From the IMG/VR virus record IMGVR_UViG_3300044273_000015, positions 1-20,081 of that record: a stretch of 20,081 bases of DNA. One strand, given 5' to 3'. The stretch is from a virus. Numbering within the stretch: the stretch's first letter is position 1; each line of letters begins with the position of its first letter. The translations under genes were made by a program, and so were the position numbers. Below are positions 4,330 to 20,081 of this stretch, piece by piece. The notes beneath the pieces are model-generated. The model was given only the letters and a program-made list of their open reading frames with translations, did not search any database and was not told the DNA's origin.

Positions 4330-4903
4330 TCCGATACTTCACTCCATTCTTCCAAACTTTAAATCCGTAGTTGTAATTTATATCACAATTAGTCCGCCAC
4401 TGCAAACACTTCCCAGCTTGCCTCCAAACACAAATATTCTCCACATACCGCCCATTACACAACTCAAACGCTCTCTCCCATATACAATCTGCTTGCACCG
4501 CCTCCCTATTCACCTTCCAGCATGAACGATTATAACACTGATACACACACCAAAGCTTTTTACATTTTACTTGGTCAATCAACTGTTTAATCAAATAAGC
4601 TTGAGCCATGAAGTGATCTATATGCCCCTTAACCTTCCAATTCGGAAACTTCTCATTCAACCAAGGCAAAAACCTTTCCGTAAGCTGAGCATATCCCACC
4701 GAACCCCATCCATCTAAAGAAGTCCGCCATATGCAATTAGTCTCCGCCTCAATCTGCCCCACATTATACCAAAAAGGATAATCTAAACCTAACACAAACT
4801 CTGATGCCTGCTTGACTTGATAAACTAACTTCCTACATTCAGCATATGAAAATTGATTTGTAAGTGTTAATATAAAAACCAATGTAAGCAGTAATTGTCT
4901 CAT
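4295..4903 (-). CDS. Exported lytic transglycosylase endolysin (SLT/GH23-like)
   Basis: Cuts the glycan strands of peptidoglycan in the periplasm at lysis. The signal peptide spans residues 1-21 (MRQLLL, hydrophobic core, SYA cleavage motif). The SLT motifs follow: catalytic glutamate E54 in QIEAETNC, then GSVGYAQLT (67-75, matching the G-x-x-G-x-x-Q motif) and CYN (Y124-N125, the late YN motif). The mature part carries 11 cysteines, unusually many, pointing to disulfide stabilisation after export, useful in a hot or acidic habitat. The ATG at 4903 overlaps the TGA of the holin-like gene (TGATG), so they are coupled. A TTG one codon earlier also exists. Sec export would make activity less dependent on a holin hole. 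Confidence 0.85.
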   Translation of the reverse strand: MRQLLLTLVFILTLTNQFSYAECRKLVYQVKQASEFVLGLDYPFWYNVGQIEAETNCIWRTSLDGWGSVGYAQLTERFLPWLNEKFPNWKVKGHIDHFMAQAYLIKQLIDQVKCKKLWCVYQCYNRSCWKVNREAVQADCIWERAFELCNGRYVENICVWRQAGKCLQWRTNCDINYNYGFKVWKNGVKYRNGIIERAYRYW

Positions 4904-6766: not shown

Positions 6767-7039
6767 TTAATACTCTTTTCCATCAACAAATACATTCACA
6801 GTCCCAGTCGTCGATACCAATACAACATCACCACTTGACAACCAAATCGGATCCGTCCTCACAAAATTAGTTGTAGCTGTCCAAAACACAAAATTACTAA
6901 CCCCATCACCAATCTTAATCGTAATCGGAACATTTGACGCATCAGGACTTACTACAGTTATCCTTACAACTGCCGTTTTACCATTTGGACATGTATATAC
7001 AACCGCTTCTGCATTCGTTATCTGTTGCCTTGCTAACAT
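6767..7039 (-). CDS. Small beta-sandwich tail protein
   Basis: A 90-aa protein: VYTCPNGKTAVVRITVVSPD, then VPITIKIGDGVSNFVFWTAT and a final strand VNVFVDGKEY. This pattern of a short N-terminal stretch, a CPNGKTA-type strand and sandwich strands is common in small phage tail or fibre proteins that bind alongside a collar or baseplate. GGAGGG for its start lies in the last codons of the upstream gene, 3 bp before the ATG region. Structural role is inferred from sequence style and neighbours. Confidence 0.65.
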   Translation of the reverse strand: MLARQQITNAEAVVYTCPNGKTAVVRITVVSPDASNVPITIKIGDGVSNFVFWTATTNFVRTDPIWLSSGDVVLVSTTGTVNVFVDGKEY

Positions 7040-7042
7040 ACT

Positions 7043-7372
7043 TTATCCCTCCAAAAACATCATTAATTGTATAAGCATATCTCCAGTTAAAACTATATTA
7101 TTTTCTAAAACTATTTTGTTAACCGTTTGCCATTTTGTTCCATCATAAACATAAATAGTTGGCGGAAAAACTGATACATCCATCCAGATTTGACCTGTTT
7201 TAGGATTTAATGGTGCCGATATTCCTATGTAAGCCCCTCGATAAATCGGATTATTCTCAGGATCAGAGTTATAAAATGCATCCGCTAAAATTGAAAAATT
7301 TGTATTTATTTTTGCTGTATCTTCACTTACTTTACCACTCGGATAAGTTATTGGATTACGAGCATATGGCAT
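7043..7372 (-). CDS. Tail-fibre-type protein with GQIWMD...YVYDGTKW motif
   Basis: A 109-aa protein. It starts with a helical NTNFSILADAF segment, followed by NPKTGQIWMDVSVFPPTIYV and YDGTKWQTV. The GQ-W-D-x-S-x-x-P-x-x-x-V-x-DG-x-W pattern is a frequent small domain in phage tail fibres, usually a surface-exposed beta hairpin. Here it is a stand-alone gene in the run of short structural genes. GGAGGG precedes the ATG. Confidence 0.7.
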   Translation of the reverse strand: MPYARNPITYPSGKVSEDTAKINTNFSILADAFYNSDPENNPIYRGAYIGISAPLNPKTGQIWMDVSVFPPTIYVYDGTKWQTVNKIVLENNIVLTGDMLIQLMMFLEG

Positions 7373-11875: not shown

Positions 11876-12748
11876 TTACAACAGATACTTTTCCACTTTA
11901 TAATTCATCCACACACTTTCTATCCTCTTCGGTCTTTCACAATATTCTGATGATGGAACTGTAGCCCTCAATGACACCTCTTTATCTAACCTTACCCATC
12001 CATGCTCCTCAAGCCTTTTATATATCTCATTTTGATAACCCGACAATATCACTTTACTTTTTAATTTTAAACAAATATCTACCAACTCTTCATGCTCCTC
12101 ATTACTCATCTCATACACATATATTCCTTTACTGTTAGAACGAGTATCCAAAACATACGGCGGATCCATATATATTACAACATCATCCCCATCATACTTC
12201 AATACCACATCCTTCCAATCCCTATTCAATACTACAACACCTCTCAACCTTTTGTGTATAGCTAATAATCTATCCTTCACTCTCTGATAAATCATTGCTT
12301 TATTCTTTTTTTTCCATATCAAAAACTGCTCAGTTAAATTACCATTCAAAGCAAATCTATTAACATAGAAAAACGCTACCGCCTTATCTACTAAATCTAA
12401 CTCCTTACTCTTTAACTTCTCTAACATCTCATAATACAACTTCTCACTCGCACCTACAAACCATATCTTCTCTACAAACTTCTGAAATAACACCTCATCC
12501 GATAAAACCTTAAACAATGCATACACCCTGTCATCTATATCATTAATAACTTCAACATCCGACCTTAACTTGTTAAAAAATACCCACCCAGCACCAAAAA
12601 ACGGCTCCACATATATCTTATGCTTAGGTATAAGCTTCACTATCCAATCCGCTATATAAAACTTACCTCCAATCCACTGAAGAAGTGATTTTACTTCATT
12701 TACCTGACACCTCATAAAATCTTCCATCACTAAATCTTTCAAATCCAT
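11876..12748 (-). CDS. dam: D12-class DNA adenine N6-methyltransferase (Dam-like)
   Basis: Transfers a methyl group from S-adenosylmethionine to adenine N6 in a short DNA motif, probably to protect phage DNA from host restriction or to mark it. Motifs from the ATG at 12748: WIGGK (25-29, motif X), EPFFGAG (48-54, motif I, cofactor binding) and DPPY (195-198, motif IV, catalytic), in the order expected for the D12 class. About 290 aa is normal. The frame extends to a TTG at 12766 with a good GAGGAAG site, so a slightly longer product is possible. The target sequence cannot be read from the protein; GATC is the usual one for Dam. It heads a two-gene minus-strand operon next to the control region. 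Confidence 0.9.
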   Translation of the reverse strand: MDLKDLVMEDFMRCQVNEVKSLLQWIGGKFYIADWIVKLIPKHKIYVEPFFGAGWVFFNKLRSDVEVINDIDDRVYALFKVLSDEVLFQKFVEKIWFVGASEKLYYEMLEKLKSKELDLVDKAVAFFYVNRFALNGNLTEQFLIWKKKNKAMIYQRVKDRLLAIHKRLRGVVVLNRDWKDVVLKYDGDDVVIYMDPPYVLDTRSNSKGIYVYEMSNEEHEELVDICLKLKSKVILSGYQNEIYKRLEEHGWVRLDKEVSLRATVPSSEYCERPKRIESVWMNYKVEKYLL

Positions 12749-12817
12749 CTGCCCAACCCTTATCAAAATAACTTCCTCACTCTATAATCCTCCCATCCCC
12801 TCTCATACCACCACTCT

Positions 12818-12846
12818 ATTTTAAACTACATCAACACAAAATCCAA
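12818..12846 (-). promoter_or_regulatory. Candidate promoter for the methylase operon
   Basis: On the minus strand, TTGGAT (12846-12841), 17-bp spacer, TAAAAT (12823-12818). It would give a leader of about 50-65 nt before the methylase start. Match is moderate; another weak pair (TTGTGT, 17 bp, TATATT) lies just upstream. Confidence 0.35.
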
Positions 12847-12886
12847 CCCCCATATTAATATACAAATCAATACACAAATACACAAA

Positions 12887-12945
12887 CCCCAACCCTAACC
12901 CCCTGCATAAACGACATGAAGAGGGCGACGACCCCCCTCTGGGGC
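12887..12945. other. C-rich tract and GC-rich hairpin before the repeat array
   Basis: Three C runs separated by AA and TAA (12887-12903) are followed by a GC-rich segment that can fold two mutually exclusive ways: AGAGGG (12920-12925) with CCCTCT (12935-12940), or CCCC (12934-12937) with GGGG (12941-12944). The second is followed by CTTTT, so terminator function on the plus strand is possible. It lies between the methylase and the tandem repeats in otherwise AT-rich DNA. Confidence 0.4.
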
Positions 12946-12968
12946 TTTTCACATTTGGCTTGGCTCCT

Positions 12969-13182
12969 CAATTCTTTAGTTTTTTGGTCAATTTTTCAAC
13001 ATTTAAATTTATCAATTTAATTCTTTACTTTTCTACTTAACTTCTCAACAATTCAATTCTTTAGTTTCTCGGTTAACTTCTTAACAACTTAATTTATCAA
13101 TTTAATTCTTTGGTTTTTTAATCAACTTTTCAACTTCTCAATTGTTTAGTTTCTCGATAAATTTTTCAACAATTCAATTTAT
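12969..13182. repeat. 2.5 copies of an 85-bp tandem repeat (44+41 bp half-units)
   Basis: Five units begin CAATT at 12969, 13013, 13054, 13098 and 13139, with lengths 44, 41, 44, 41 and 44. Units 1, 3 and 5 share CAATTcTTTAGTTT at the start and an AATTTAT-type end; units 2 and 4 begin CAATTTAATTCTTT. All contain a (G/C)TYAAYTTYTCAAC-like core. This is a higher-order repeat of 85 bp. It is non-coding and coincides with the change in GC skew, so it is a candidate iteron array. Confidence 0.75.
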
Positions 13183-13410
13183 AAACAATAAAACAATAAA
13201 TATAACCTTATGAAGTCAACTTTTTTGGTGTTACGGAAGGCGGTCGATTTTCACACAATTGTTTAATTCAAATAAATGTAATCTTACAAAGTTAACTTTT
13301 AAAATTTATAAACATATAAACAAATAAACTTATAAACTTATAAACAATAAAACAATAAATATAAACCTACAAAGTCAACTTTTATAATTTATAAACATAT
13401 AAACAATATT
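13180..13410. repeat. AT-rich repeats with GTYAACTT core
   Basis: TATAAACAATAAAACAATAA occurs at 13180 and again at 13339. A second element, (T/A)ACAAAGTYAACTTTT followed by AATTTATAAACATATAAAC, occurs around 13201 (5' part only), 13276 and 13359, spaced about 76 and 83 bp. In the middle copy the core is the perfect palindrome AAAGTTAACTTT. No ORF. A short G+C-richer patch (13230-13250) interrupts the array. Candidate unwinding/initiator region. Confidence 0.6.
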
Positions 13411-13411
13411 T

Positions 13412-13457
13412 TTTGGTAAATAAATAAATTTATATATTTAGTGGTTTGGTCAAGAAT
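13412..13457 (+). repeat. 46-bp dispersed repeat, copy 1
   Basis: Begins TTTGGTAAATAA and ends GGTCAAGAAT. Matches the copy at 14898-14943 at 38 of 46 positions without gaps; the 3' part recurs at 14550. Non-coding. Confidence 0.6.
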
Positions 13458-13514
13458 TGGCTGCTTCGGAAGTGTCTCAAATTACGAGGAAAGCTTGCGA
13501 TAACGGTTCTTAAT

Positions 13515-13529
13515 AAAGAATTATTCTTT
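13515..13529. promoter_or_regulatory. 7-1-7 palindrome, site 1 (Fur-family-like)
   Basis: AAAGAAT-T-ATTCTTT, a perfect inverted repeat with a single central base. Site 2 starts 17 bp later on the same stretch. Same arrangement as sites 2 and 3, differing at the outer bases. Confidence 0.45.
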
Positions 13530-13530
13530 G

Positions 13531-13547
13531 TTTAGAATTATTCTAAA
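13531..13547. promoter_or_regulatory. 7-1-7 palindrome, site 2 (PerR/Fur-like)
   Basis: TTTAGAAT-T-ATTCTAAA, perfect over 17 bp. The inner 15 bp fit the TTAnAATnATTnTAA form of PerR-type operators. No gene starts immediately beside it. Confidence 0.5.
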
Positions 13548-13613
13548 GTAGAGGAATGTATGAGAAGGAGAATTTCTTTTTTGTTTAATTAAATTTTTTT
13601 AAAATTTTAAAAA

Positions 13614-13636
13614 TGTTCCACGAAAAATGTTCCACG
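13614..13636. repeat. Direct repeat TGTTCCACG x2
   Basis: TGTTCCACG at 13614-13622 and 13628-13636, each in an A-rich setting (AAAATGTTCCACGRAAAA), 14 bp apart. TGTTCCACG equals one half of the bacterial parS-type palindrome, but the second half is absent. Confidence 0.5.
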
Positions 13637-13690
13637 GAAAAAAAATAAAAAAAAAAAATTTCGAAAAACTTTTTCTCATAGCTTCCATTT

Positions 13691-13707
13691 TTTAGAATAA
13701 TTCTAAA
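13691..13707. promoter_or_regulatory. 7-1-7 palindrome, site 3 (PerR/Fur-like)
   Basis: TTTAGAAT-A-ATTCTAAA, identical to site 2 except for the central base. Sites 2 and 3 bracket the A-rich segment with the TGTTCCACG pair. Confidence 0.5.
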
Positions 13708-13730
13708 TTAATAACTTTTCTAACTTGCTA

Positions 13731-14036
13731 CGGTATTGGTTAGTTTGGTAGTCGATAGGTTTGGAAGGTAGGTTTGGTATTGGTTACGGTATTGGTTTGG
13801 TAGTTGGTTTATTTATTTGCAATTGAAGTTGCAATTGAGAATGAGTTTCAATTTCGGTATTGATTTGGAAGGTTTGGTAGTTGGTAAGAAGGTTTGGTAG
13901 GTAGGTTAGGTCGGTTTGGTTTGGTAGGTTTCGGTAGGTCGGTTTGGTTATGGTTTGGTAGTTGGTAGGTAGGTAGGTTTGGTTACGGTTTGGTAGGTTT
14001 GGTAGGTAGGTTTGGAAGGTTTACTTGGAAGGCTTG
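13731..14036 (+). repeat. G/T-rich irregular repeat (GGTTTGGTAGGTAGG)
   Basis: About 300 bp of irregular GGTTTGG, GGTAGG and GGTATTGG units on the plus strand with almost no C (13921-13980 has 25 G and 2 C). A TTGCAATTGA pair with a 12-bp period (13817 and 13829) interrupts it. No ORF with a start signal. Closely spaced GG pairs could form two-layer G-quadruplexes in single-stranded DNA or RNA. It lies just upstream of the first early promoter. Confidence 0.7.
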
Positions 14037-14061
14037 TTTTTATTAGGTTTGTAAAAAGGTA

Positions 14062-14089
14062 TTGACAATTTAAAAAAGCATGTTATATT
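14062..14089 (+). promoter_or_regulatory. Early promoter P1
   Basis: TTGACA (14062-14067), 16-bp A-rich spacer, TGt then TATATT (14084-14089). Same design as P2, P3 and P4. Drives the Cys-rich gene at 14128. Confidence 0.75.
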
Positions 14090-17866: not shown

Positions 17867-17894
17867 TTGACAATTTAAAAATTTGTGATATAAT
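17867..17894 (+). promoter_or_regulatory. Early promoter P4 (anti-CRISPR operon)
   Basis: TTGACA (17867-17872), 16-bp A-rich spacer, TGA then TATAAT (17889-17894). Same design as P1-P3; leads the operon that carries the ring nuclease. Confidence 0.85.
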
Positions 17895-17939: not shown

Positions 17940-18167
17940 ATGGCATTAATAAAAATAGGGCACAGGATAATTAATCTACAGAATGTTAAGCTGATTGAGT
18001 TAATAGAAAACTCTCAAGGGAAAGAAATTAGATTTTATTTTATCGATGGAAGTTATAGCTATTGTAACTTGAAAAATGGAGAAGAAGACAGAGATTTTGA
18101 AGTAGCATGGGAAGAATTAAATCGTTTATGGGTTTTTTCTACAGATAAATTTTTCTCAGCAGTTTAA
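17940..18167 (+). CDS. Small orphan protein (75 aa), first gene of anti-CRISPR operon
   Basis: Beta-rich start (ALIKIGHRIINLQNVKLIEL, then KEIRFYFIDGSYSYC) followed by a short helix (VAWEELNRLW). The pattern 'I-x-L-x-N-V-x-x-I ... dG' resembles small LytTR-like or PH-like beta domains, but I do not assign a family. GAGGGGGGAG precedes the ATG. It is promoter-proximal to the 46-aa gene and the ring nuclease, so a counter-defence or regulatory role is possible by association. Confidence 0.65.
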   Translation: MALIKIGHRIINLQNVKLIELIENSQGKEIRFYFIDGSYSYCNLKNGEEDRDFEVAWEELNRLWVFSTDKFFSAV

Positions 18168-18188: not shown

Positions 18189-18329
18189 ATGAAGAAAGAA
18201 ATTCAGGCACCGAAGTATTTAACGCTTTGGAAGGACGGGAGGTGGGTCTTTCTAAAAAGGGAGGAGTTTGAGAGGCAAGGATTTGTAGAAAGATTGGTTA
18301 AGGTGTTGAAAAGGTTGTTTAAAAGATAA
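18189..18329 (+). CDS. Small basic protein (46 aa)
   Basis: Short ORF with a strong ribosome site (AGGAGGTG, 6 nt before ATG 18189). The product begins MKKEIQAPKYLTLWKDGRWV and continues with a basic amphipathic helix ending VERLVKVLKRLFKR. No family recognised. It lies between two genes of the same operon with short gaps (21 and 23 bp). A membrane- or nucleic-acid-binding peptide is plausible from charge. Confidence 0.65.
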   Translation: MKKEIQAPKYLTLWKDGRWVFLKREEFERQGFVERLVKVLKRLFKR

Positions 18330-18352: not shown

Positions 18353-18685
18353 ATGTTGTATGTTCTCAACACGCTTATTGTTCCAGTGGATTTTGGAATT
18401 AAGCAGGAGTATGTAGTGTCGTTGTGGAAGATTGACCTTGAGAGAGCTCGGAAAATAGTTAGAGAGATGGAGTTTACTTCAGCAGTTGGGCATGAGGCGA
18501 CAGCGAAATTGCTTACGGAGTTGTTGGGGGTGGAAATTCCTTTTAATAGAATTGCTGTTAAGATGAAAGAGGGGGACGCAGGTTTACATTTTGTTCTTAG
18601 GACAAGGTTACCTGAGGGCAAAGTTCTTTCTGAAGAGGAGCTCAGAGAGCTCGATTTTGACTTAGTCTTAAGTAGAGTAAGCTAA
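18353..18685 (+). CDS. acrIII-1: AcrIII-1 viral ring nuclease (DUF1874 family)
   Basis: Degrades cyclic tetra-adenylate (cA4), the second messenger made by type III CRISPR complexes, so switching off Csx1/Csm6-type effectors. The 110-aa length and the whole pattern match DUF1874: MLYVLN start, SAVGHEATAKLLTELLGV (43-60), FNR (64-66), KMKEGD, RTRLPEGKVLSEEEL (83-97). Catalytic His is at position 47 in GHEAT, exactly as in SIRV1 gp29, and R85 and E88 also coincide with that protein's active-site residues; S11 of gp29 is Pro here. It should act as a homodimer in the cytoplasm. AGGAGGTG precedes the ATG. Placement behind P4 fits early expression. From memory, a homologue exists in Hydrogenobaculum phage 1. 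Confidence 0.93.
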   Translation: MLYVLNTLIVPVDFGIKQEYVVSLWKIDLERARKIVREMEFTSAVGHEATAKLLTELLGVEIPFNRIAVKMKEGDAGLHFVLRTRLPEGKVLSEEELRELDFDLVLSRVS

Positions 18686-18746: not shown

Positions 18747-19517
18747 ATGCCAACAATAATCGATGTGTCCATTGAGTATATTACTCCTGTGCTCGGGATT
18801 AATCCAATTGATGATCTCGGAGTGGCTTATTTTGAAGAGAAGCTAAAAAAAGAAATTGAAAAAATTGAAAAGAAGTTGTCAAAGGTAAAAGATGAGCAAG
18901 AAAGAGAAACTTTAGAAATGAGGCTTGAGCGGTTACAACAAGAATTAATGGCGATGTCGAGTGGCGAAGATGAGGAGTTCGAGAATAAAAAAGTTAAGGT
19001 ATTCCTTCGCAATCAAGAGGGGGCTCTCTGTTGGAGCCACCATCAAATCAAAGGGCACTTCAAAGAGATAGTCCAGTATAGGATGTCCGAAACTTGGCTT
19101 CGCAATGCAATCTCTCGGTTTGTTGATATTTTCCCGTATCAGTGGGATATAGAGAATGGTATAAGTCCAGAGGCAGATTTGATACCTATTTTACGACATG
19201 GTGAGCCGATCAAGCAACCAGACAGTATTTTATCGAGACCTCTTGCCTCTTGGGTAGGGACGCAGAGAATAGTTACGATATCGAGCTCGGAGATGATTAA
19301 TCCTCCAGCGGAGCTACAGTTCCGAGTGGTCATCTGGGACATTGAGAAAAAGGACAGGATACCAACTCCTGAGTATATTCGGAGGATTTTGGAATATGGC
19401 GTTCAATGGGGTCATTCTGGGTGGCGGACTGCTCGGTATGGTCGGTATACGATAAAAGAATTTAATGTATTAGGGGAAGTTAAAAAAGTGAAGAAGCTAA
19501 CTATTGTGAGAAAGTAA
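18747..19517 (+). CDS. RAMP-like phage protein with coiled-coil insertion
   Basis: A 256-aa protein. A beta start (TIIDVSIEYITPVLG) is broken by a long charged coiled coil (29-72), then VKVFLRNQEGA and IKGHFKE (101-107), RPLASWVGTQR (164-174), SSSEMI (179-184) and a Gly-rich C-terminus, ILEYGVQWGHSGWRTARYG then RYTIKEFNVLG (214-243). The order KGH-KE, RPL...GPR-like, SE, LEYG-x-x-G-x-GxWR-x-x-x-YGR is one I recall from conserved unknown phage proteins; the Gly-rich loop and duplicated sandwich style recall RAMP (Cas5/Cas6/Cas7) folds. GAGGAGGAG precedes the ATG. It directly follows the ring nuclease in one operon. RNA binding or CRISPR interference is inference. Confidence 0.6.
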   Translation: MPTIIDVSIEYITPVLGINPIDDLGVAYFEEKLKKEIEKIEKKLSKVKDEQERETLEMRLERLQQELMAMSSGEDEEFENKKVKVFLRNQEGALCWSHHQIKGHFKEIVQYRMSETWLRNAISRFVDIFPYQWDIENGISPEADLIPILRHGEPIKQPDSILSRPLASWVGTQRIVTISSSEMINPPAELQFRVVIWDIEKKDRIPTPEYIRRILEYGVQWGHSGWRTARYGRYTIKEFNVLGEVKKVKKLTIVRK

Positions 19518-20081
19518 AGTCGAAAGCTGAATTGTCAAGAAAAGAGGTGGAGACGAAGGGATAAGATATGATGAAGTAAAGAGGTGTTGTGAGTTGGGTG
19601 AGGTGAAATAAAGTAAAGTGATGGCTTAGTAATGTGAGGTAAGATGGTGATGGAAAGTGGAGCTGAATTGTCAAGTAAAGTGGGAAGGGGTAAGGTTCTA
19701 AGTGGGGAAGGGAGTGTTAAAGAAGTGTGTAGTTGCGGTCGGGAGACGAGTTGTCAAGTAAAGTGGTGTCTCGGTATTGTGAGGAGGAAAGTTGTTTAGT
19801 ATGGAATTGGTAGTTGTGAATTGTAAAGAATGGAGTTAGAAATGATGAAATGTAAAGTTTTATAATGTAGAAGAAGCGAACTGTTCTGTTGAGTAGAGAA
19901 CGATAGAGTAGAGGGTGATAAGAGGTATAGTTTCGTTGAGGTAACGAGTCGAAAAGAAGCGTCTGGGTTGAGTGCGGTGTGGAGGTGGTGCAATTTATTG
20001 AGAATTGTTTTGGTAAAGATTGATTTAGTATGGAGCTATTGGGACAAGTATGGTGTTAGTAAAGTGGGGAGGTGTGCTGAG
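19518..20081 (+). repeat. C-depleted gene-free region with TTGTCAAG repeats
   Basis: About 560 bp with no credible ORF or ribosome site. Plus strand is almost free of C (19561-19620 has none and 21 G). TTGTCAAG occurs at 19532, 19668 and 19751, twice within AGCTGAATTGTCAAG (19525, 19661) and twice followed by TAAAGTGG. AGTAAAGTGG-like units recur further (for example near 19610 and 20060). The reverse complement CTTGACAATT resembles the -35 of the early promoters, but no matching -10 follows. Confidence 0.6.

Follow-up and report, generated by a model that had tools for sequence, protein, structure and literature searches.

The window considered here, i.e., the whole stretch of viral DNA analysed (20,081 nucleotides; IMG/VR record IMGVR_UViG_3300044273_000015), is a phage contig closely related to Hydrogenobaculum phage 1 (HP1), and its last part carries a cluster of genes on the plus strand (Table 1). 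Ahead of this cluster, upstream of position 17940, lies a sigma-70-type promoter-like site which, judging from its match to the consensus, possibly serves the whole cluster. It is followed by a 75-aa open reading frame (ORF) with no Pfam match, a 46-aa basic ORF, the viral ring nuclease AcrIII-1 and, after a gap of 61 nt, a gene encoding a 256-aa protein with which AcrIII-1 is probably co-transcribed. Directly after the stop codon of the latter gene begins a block that is non-coding on the gene strand and contains 5% C. In HP1 (L009), a tRNA gene (1773-1846; Rfam 75 bits) stands upstream of the cluster and has no counterpart in the window. Farther to the left in the window, a non-coding region of 1.3 kb (12767-14080), C-rich at its left end, separates leftward from rightward genes, with a D12-class adenine-N6 DNA methyltransferase gene at its border (11876-12766, minus strand; PF02086, E=3.9e-30); parts of this divergent region are 64-89% similar to other Hydrogenobaculum-type phages. 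Within it, positions 13700-14060 are filled with the G/T-rich words GGTTT, GGTA and GGTTAC and are periodic at both lags, 4 and 5; this G-rich stretch was considered as a second array and rejected, since a strong lag 4 beside lag 5 denotes GGTTT/GGTA low complexity.

Table 1. Position of the features discussed in the text (coordinates are those of the window).
Feature	Position	Strand	Remarks
Sigma-70-type promoter-like site, TTGACA-N16-TATAAT	17867..17894	+	TG before second hexamer, 12/12; consensus match only
75-aa ORF, first gene after promoter-like site	17940..18167	+	No assigned function
Basic ORF (46 aa), shortly ahead of AcrIII-1	18189..18329	+	Read from sequence
AcrIII-1 (DUF1874, PF08960) viral ring nuclease	18353..18685	+	PF08960, E=9.2e-26
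vipr-like gene	18747..19517	+	ATG start, 256 aa, open; single-domain RAMP; HP1 gp16 homologue
Helical-hairpin (coiled-coil) insertion, residues 23-71	18813..18959	+	AF2 helices 23-46 and 50-71
RAMP glycine-rich loop, residues 217-234 (YGVQWGHSGWRTARYGRY)	19395..19448	+	Near-invariant residues, profile match
Candidate guide-RNA (vrRNA) array	19518..20081	+	About 110 tandem G-W-R-N-N units, occasional 6-nt units; truncated by contig end

The 256-aa protein is 87% identical to HP1 gp16 and is kept at 81-88% identity in eight IMG/VR contigs together with HP1 gp16. No model of Pfam, PHROGs or NCBIfam covers it or its family, so the original prediction fairly described a phage family without known function; scans with the single protein (Pfam, PHROGs, NCBIfam and PADLOC) yielded weak coiled-coil matches only, which were caused by an insertion and were set aside. 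More distant members were collected with WDYQxKGFFK, a motif of gut-phage proteins, giving 71 IMG/VR loci, to which 53 bacterial genome contigs and 80 viral loci were added. The distant family is homologous to the window protein along the whole length (hhalign, E=8.7e-11), and profiles built without the window protein match it as well (A2, E=1.5e-15; A3, E=1e-23). The protein, itself conserved in Hydrogenobaculum-type phages, belongs to a large phage family. In the alignment of 136 homologues, the invariant or near-invariant residues include L16-G17, F86, G103, K106, R164-P165-L166 and S181-E182, besides G218, G222, W226, R227 and G232 within the glycine-rich C-terminus, a segment already singled out by the original prediction. 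Distant members of the family are encoded in the vicinity of genes for SSB, a DnaB-type helicase and a recombination ATPase.

Respective to the fold, an AF2 model computed with nine close homologues only reached a pLDDT of 48 and was discarded, and the model computed with 136 homologues reached a pLDDT of 88.5 and a pTM of 0.76. Compared with the PDB by Foldseek, the latter gave 50 matches at E<=0.001, every one of them a CRISPR RAMP (Csm3-type, Cmr or type VII Cas7), the best being 6xn3_F (E=2.3e-6, probability 1.00). The corresponding TM-scores, normalised by query length, reach a moderate 0.4-0.47, in part because of the insertion. This insertion had been anticipated as a coiled coil and is modelled as a helical hairpin, the helical blocks of which have a mean pLDDT of about 87-97; most of its columns are filled in only some 9 of the 136 homologues, essentially the Hydrogenobaculum group, to which it is thus essentially lineage-specific. 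At the sequence level, the family profile matches type VII Cas7 (E=5.9e-6) and Csm4 (E=5.5e-4), and it is on the glycine-rich loop that these matches fall; in addition, the PADLOC model Cas7_IIId is matched by 33 of the 136 family members (best 4.9e-6). Taken together, the Foldseek matches, all to RAMPs, the family profile and the PADLOC matches support the RAMP/Cas7-type fold proposed at the outset. Such a fold is shared with the Cas7 proteins of type III and type VII CRISPR systems (Csm3; 6xn3_F, 8yhd), including the C-terminal glycine-rich loop, but identity to these amounts to 8-13% and the window differs in having neither a cas operon among the ORFs examined nor CRISPR repeats, the tract at 19518-20081 not being a repeat-spacer array. 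The protein is accordingly not classed as a Cas7/Csm3 subunit of a CRISPR system; it is a small phage RAMP with an RRM core and a glycine loop, as in VIPR.

VIPR was reported only in 2026, in a preprint (PMC13142463) which presents it as a phage-encoded and possibly ancestral relative of the CRISPR RAMPs. There, Vipr is described as a phage RAMP working with vrRNAs in RNA-guided, inter-phage conflict; the vrRNAs consist of tandem units, in which a constant GGY alternates with a variable NN, and are encoded in long intergenic tracts adjoining the gene (PMC13142463). The system reads double-stranded DNA with one base skipped per unit, and its loci comprise a vap accessory gene, coding for a DNA-binding protein or an enzyme (PMC13142463). 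Seven types are distinguished, some with “a related consensus” or with staggered arrays; in type II (the SUSP1 and P. fulva clades), each vrRNA is made of 9-16 YNNGG units and ends in a structured 3' tail that is invariant (PMC13142463). With the SUSP1 Vipr sequence taken from the phage record KT454805 (ALH47069.1), comparison to the A4 profile of the present family gave a full-length hhalign match (E=4.9e-7, probability 92.5%), and by this sequence comparison the family is homologous to Vipr. From sequence alone, the family profile also weakly matches the solved SUSP1 Vipr 36pp_D (E=0.033) over most of its length.

The block behind the gene, which the original prediction had missed, has the periodicity expected of such a guide-like repeat array. 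In the window, the autocorrelation of G at lag 5 is 1.46, a value attained by none of 500 dinucleotide shuffles (1.00 +/- 0.07); pooling the downstream blocks of nine contigs, it is 1.38 vs 0.996 +/- 0.022 for dinucleotide shuffles (z=17.5), with further peaks at lags 10 and 15 and a trough at lag 4. As a positive control, the SUSP1 VIPR block gave 1.73/1.70/1.74 at lags 5/10/15. Among cyclic HMMs with periods of 3 to 7, period 5 is preferred by 361 log units (log-likelihood -6605 vs -6966 for the next best), and its unit reads G(.86) - T/A(.99) - A/G(.74) - N - N, which differs from GGY. Parsing into units further revealed 6-nt units, which most often follow 4-7 regular ones and as a rule contain an additional G; even without parsing, the maxima of base identity fall on lags 21 and 26, not on 20 and 25. 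When homologous modules are compared between phages, 58 of the 60 changes at the W position are T<->A, the constant positions change mainly within the consensus, and substitutions at the NN positions are more frequent and go in every direction. The tract is therefore composed, as in VIPR, of tandem 5-nt units with a conserved triplet and a hypervariable dinucleotide. Variability in the homologous modules is highest at the base before G (0.25), then 0.21 and 0.14; by register with GGY/NN, the paired bases would be the two that follow G-W, and the order of variability agrees with this.

Concerning the RNA itself, a tail attached to each guide was sought, and 0-5 repeated 14-mers were found per block, none of them repeated with each guide. 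The array RNA folds no more stably than shuffles (z=+0.96), and a search of the window and four relatives with Rfam matched the HP1 tRNA but neither a hammerhead nor any further family. Five contigs agree in how the tract ends downstream (GACATGWGCYGTRATGWATTG; L004 (HP1) 4557-4615, L002, L003, L006 and L007), and the rest diverges; this end may represent one 3' tail for the whole tract or a last guide that has been conserved. Close to where the tract stops, the module GAAAA GAACT GACTT AAAAT GAGGN GNTTG GAGTA is common to five contigs (L001, L008, G010, G011 and G018), the arrays of which otherwise differ in their constant part (G-T-R vs G-A-N); it is a candidate for a common target. Minus-strand ORFs overlapping the array (158 aa in L001, 136 aa in L007) were rejected as genes and are judged artefacts of the G-poor complement. 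In L003, a 122-aa ORF with several cysteines (6860-7228) lies inside the tract and splits the array; the block taken as a whole shows no lag-5 excess, and parse and scan still find array stretches in it.

The association between gene and array is strict. In the contigs of close homologues, the tract lies behind the gene in nine out of nine. Another 17 contigs were chosen by their terminase alone; four of these have the gene, and exactly those four have the tract, on the gene strand and directly behind. Overall, the tract is present in 13/13 contigs with the gene vs 0/13 related contigs without it, some of the latter being short fragments. The constant part is G-T-R in the nine contigs and G-A-N in the four terminase-chosen contigs. 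The linkage extends to the distant family, where the strongest period-5 G window falls within <=1 kb on the gene strand at 89 of 134 loci (17.5 expected) and within the same distance on the other strand at 33 more. Canonical arrays are found there, namely 21 consecutive near-perfect GGY/NN units in L162 (8085-8190) and, in L167 (2640-2940), five GGY/NN arrays of 9-15 units, each ending with GGCag.

Compared with VIPR of Escherichia phage SUSP1 (type II), the Hydrogenobaculum-phage locus shares (i) one small phage-encoded RAMP, homologous over its full length, (ii) a long non-coding tract directly behind the gene, made of 5-nt units of a constant triplet plus variable NN, and (iii) the periodicity signature of this tract. 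It differs in the constant part, i.e., G-W-R (or G-A-N) vs GGY, and in the layout, namely one tract of some 100 units, interrupted by 6-nt units at intervals of 4-7, vs separate RNAs of about 100 nt comprising 9-16 units. Furthermore, no repeated 3' tail occurs in the array of the window, the protein has a coiled-coil insertion and AcrIII-1 is found next door. Since no structured 3' tail is repeated with each guide, the array is not assigned to type II; it may belong to one of the types with a related consensus or staggered arrays already named in PMC13142463.

In view of the protein homology, the RAMP fold, the array, its unit consensus and its strict linkage to the gene, as well as the linkage in distant relatives, the gene is best explained as a Vipr-family RAMP and the block as its guide-RNA array, the two making up an RNA-guided system of VIPR type in a Hydrogenobaculum phage, to which we attach a probability of roughly 0.86. 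Weighing against it are the constant triplet other than GGY, the interspersed 6-nt units, the absence of a tail repeated with each guide, the moderate TM-scores, the L003 block, the truncation of the window's array and the target searches described below, which returned none. By homology to the system of PMC13142463, the protein would bind RNA, follow the skip rule, target DNA, act as a repressor and serve against competing phages. By this analogy, the block would be transcribed with the early cluster, in the orientation of the gene, and every 5-nt unit of the RNA would be covered by one RAMP subunit, gripping the constant G-W-R by its glycine loop and thumb and presenting the variable dinucleotide of the unit. 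The variable bases could then jointly read a gapped double-stranded DNA target, one base being skipped per unit, and the bound ribonucleoprotein would act as a transcriptional repressor on a competing phage, prophage or satellite. A more specific version is put forward tentatively, at somewhat less than even odds, namely that the locus is a VIPR variant with an RNA grammar of its own, where the constant part is cut to G-W, guide modules of about 4-7 units are closed by a 6-nt unit, the transcript is continuous and tail-less, and the system travels with AcrIII-1, so that one early cluster would both disarm type III CRISPR signalling and silence competing phages.

Were the protein a Vipr-like RAMP, the array could still act in cis rather than as guides, i.e., as a regulatory RNA, a replication origin, a packaging or recombination element or a DNA-level protein binding site. 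This is unlikely, even if the tract is single and continuous, shares modules between phages and has a conserved downstream end, and even if the searches for targets returned none. In related phages (511 kb), guide patterns with 0-3 skipped bases, in two registers and with three treatments of the 6-nt units, were in no excess over shuffles or other skips, and exact 20-base patterns derived from the L162 and HP1 guides had 0 matches in IMG/VR. The canonical guides of L162, L167, L198 and L153, searched against 3 Mb, gave windows with at least 16 matches in 11/49 cases at skip 1, compared with 3 at skip 0 and 2 at skip 2; the windows overlap, and this slight excess is not significant. Against an array in cis, the two-part code of a constant portion and a fully variable dinucleotide is the same as in vrRNAs that have been proven (PMC13142463), canonical GGY/NN arrays occur in distant members, and a cis site has no need of hypervariable NN positions.

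Quite improbable, too, is that the protein acts as a Cas7/RAMP mimic, a second anti-CRISPR which, alongside AcrIII-1, would block assembly or activity by binding to crRNA of the host, to target RNA or to subunits of a type III effector, in line with the second CRISPR-interfering component that the original prediction had suggested from the pairing of the two genes. The nearest folds are indeed Csm3 and type VII Cas7, and the neighbourhood on which that idea was built stood in part, as AcrIII-1 adjoins the gene in 7/8 close relatives, the eighth contig being cut off. Beyond these, the pairing dissolves: G011 has gene and array without AcrIII-1, G025 has AcrIII-1 without the gene, and none of roughly 200 distant-family loci contains an AcrIII-1-like ORF. 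Since G011 lacks AcrIII-1 and no distant locus has it, a second anti-CRISPR is not supported; the gene follows its own array, not AcrIII-1, and a mimic would leave unexplained both this array and the homology to Vipr. Despite a common neighbourhood, strand and set of phages, AcrIII-1 is unrelated in fold and family and separable from gene and array. The cluster of AcrIII-1 and the gene is thus lineage-specific, the unit is the gene plus the tract, and AcrIII-1 is a neighbour outside the RNA-guided unit. Finally, an RNA- or ssDNA-binding accessory of DNA replication or recombination, followed by a C-poor block of functionless mutational low complexity, would suit the early gene region with its adjoining Prim-Pol and Cas4-like nuclease genes and the replication and recombination genes near distant members, but is scarcely credible, as low complexity can yield neither the lag-5 excess over dinucleotide shuffles, nor the gene-tract linkage, nor changes at constant positions confined to the consensus.

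As a VIPR-type system, the locus would bring a member from hot-spring Aquificota phages. With its different unit consensus and layout, this member would allow what is indispensable in the code to be tested on a natural variant, and it might supply a heat-stable DNA binder that is guided by RNA and very small. The adjacency to AcrIII-1 further suggests a cluster joining counter-defence and inter-phage attack. Scanning for period 5 detects such tracts even where their sequences are not similar, and annotations as “hypothetical protein,” such as HP1 gp16, become testable guide systems. Among the distant members, L162 has an NN string which, when assigned to the first two positions of codons, looks like a target that encodes a peptide. 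Whichever gene follows the array of the window lies past the window's end. In one subgroup of the related phages, the first gene after the array encodes a small RHH-like protein (L219, 5299-5634, minus strand; Antitox_RHH, E=1.2e-4, a match below the cut-off), and in another subgroup the array is followed by a 74-aa protein and a Prim-Pol/DUF927 gene; all of these are candidate VIPR accessory genes.
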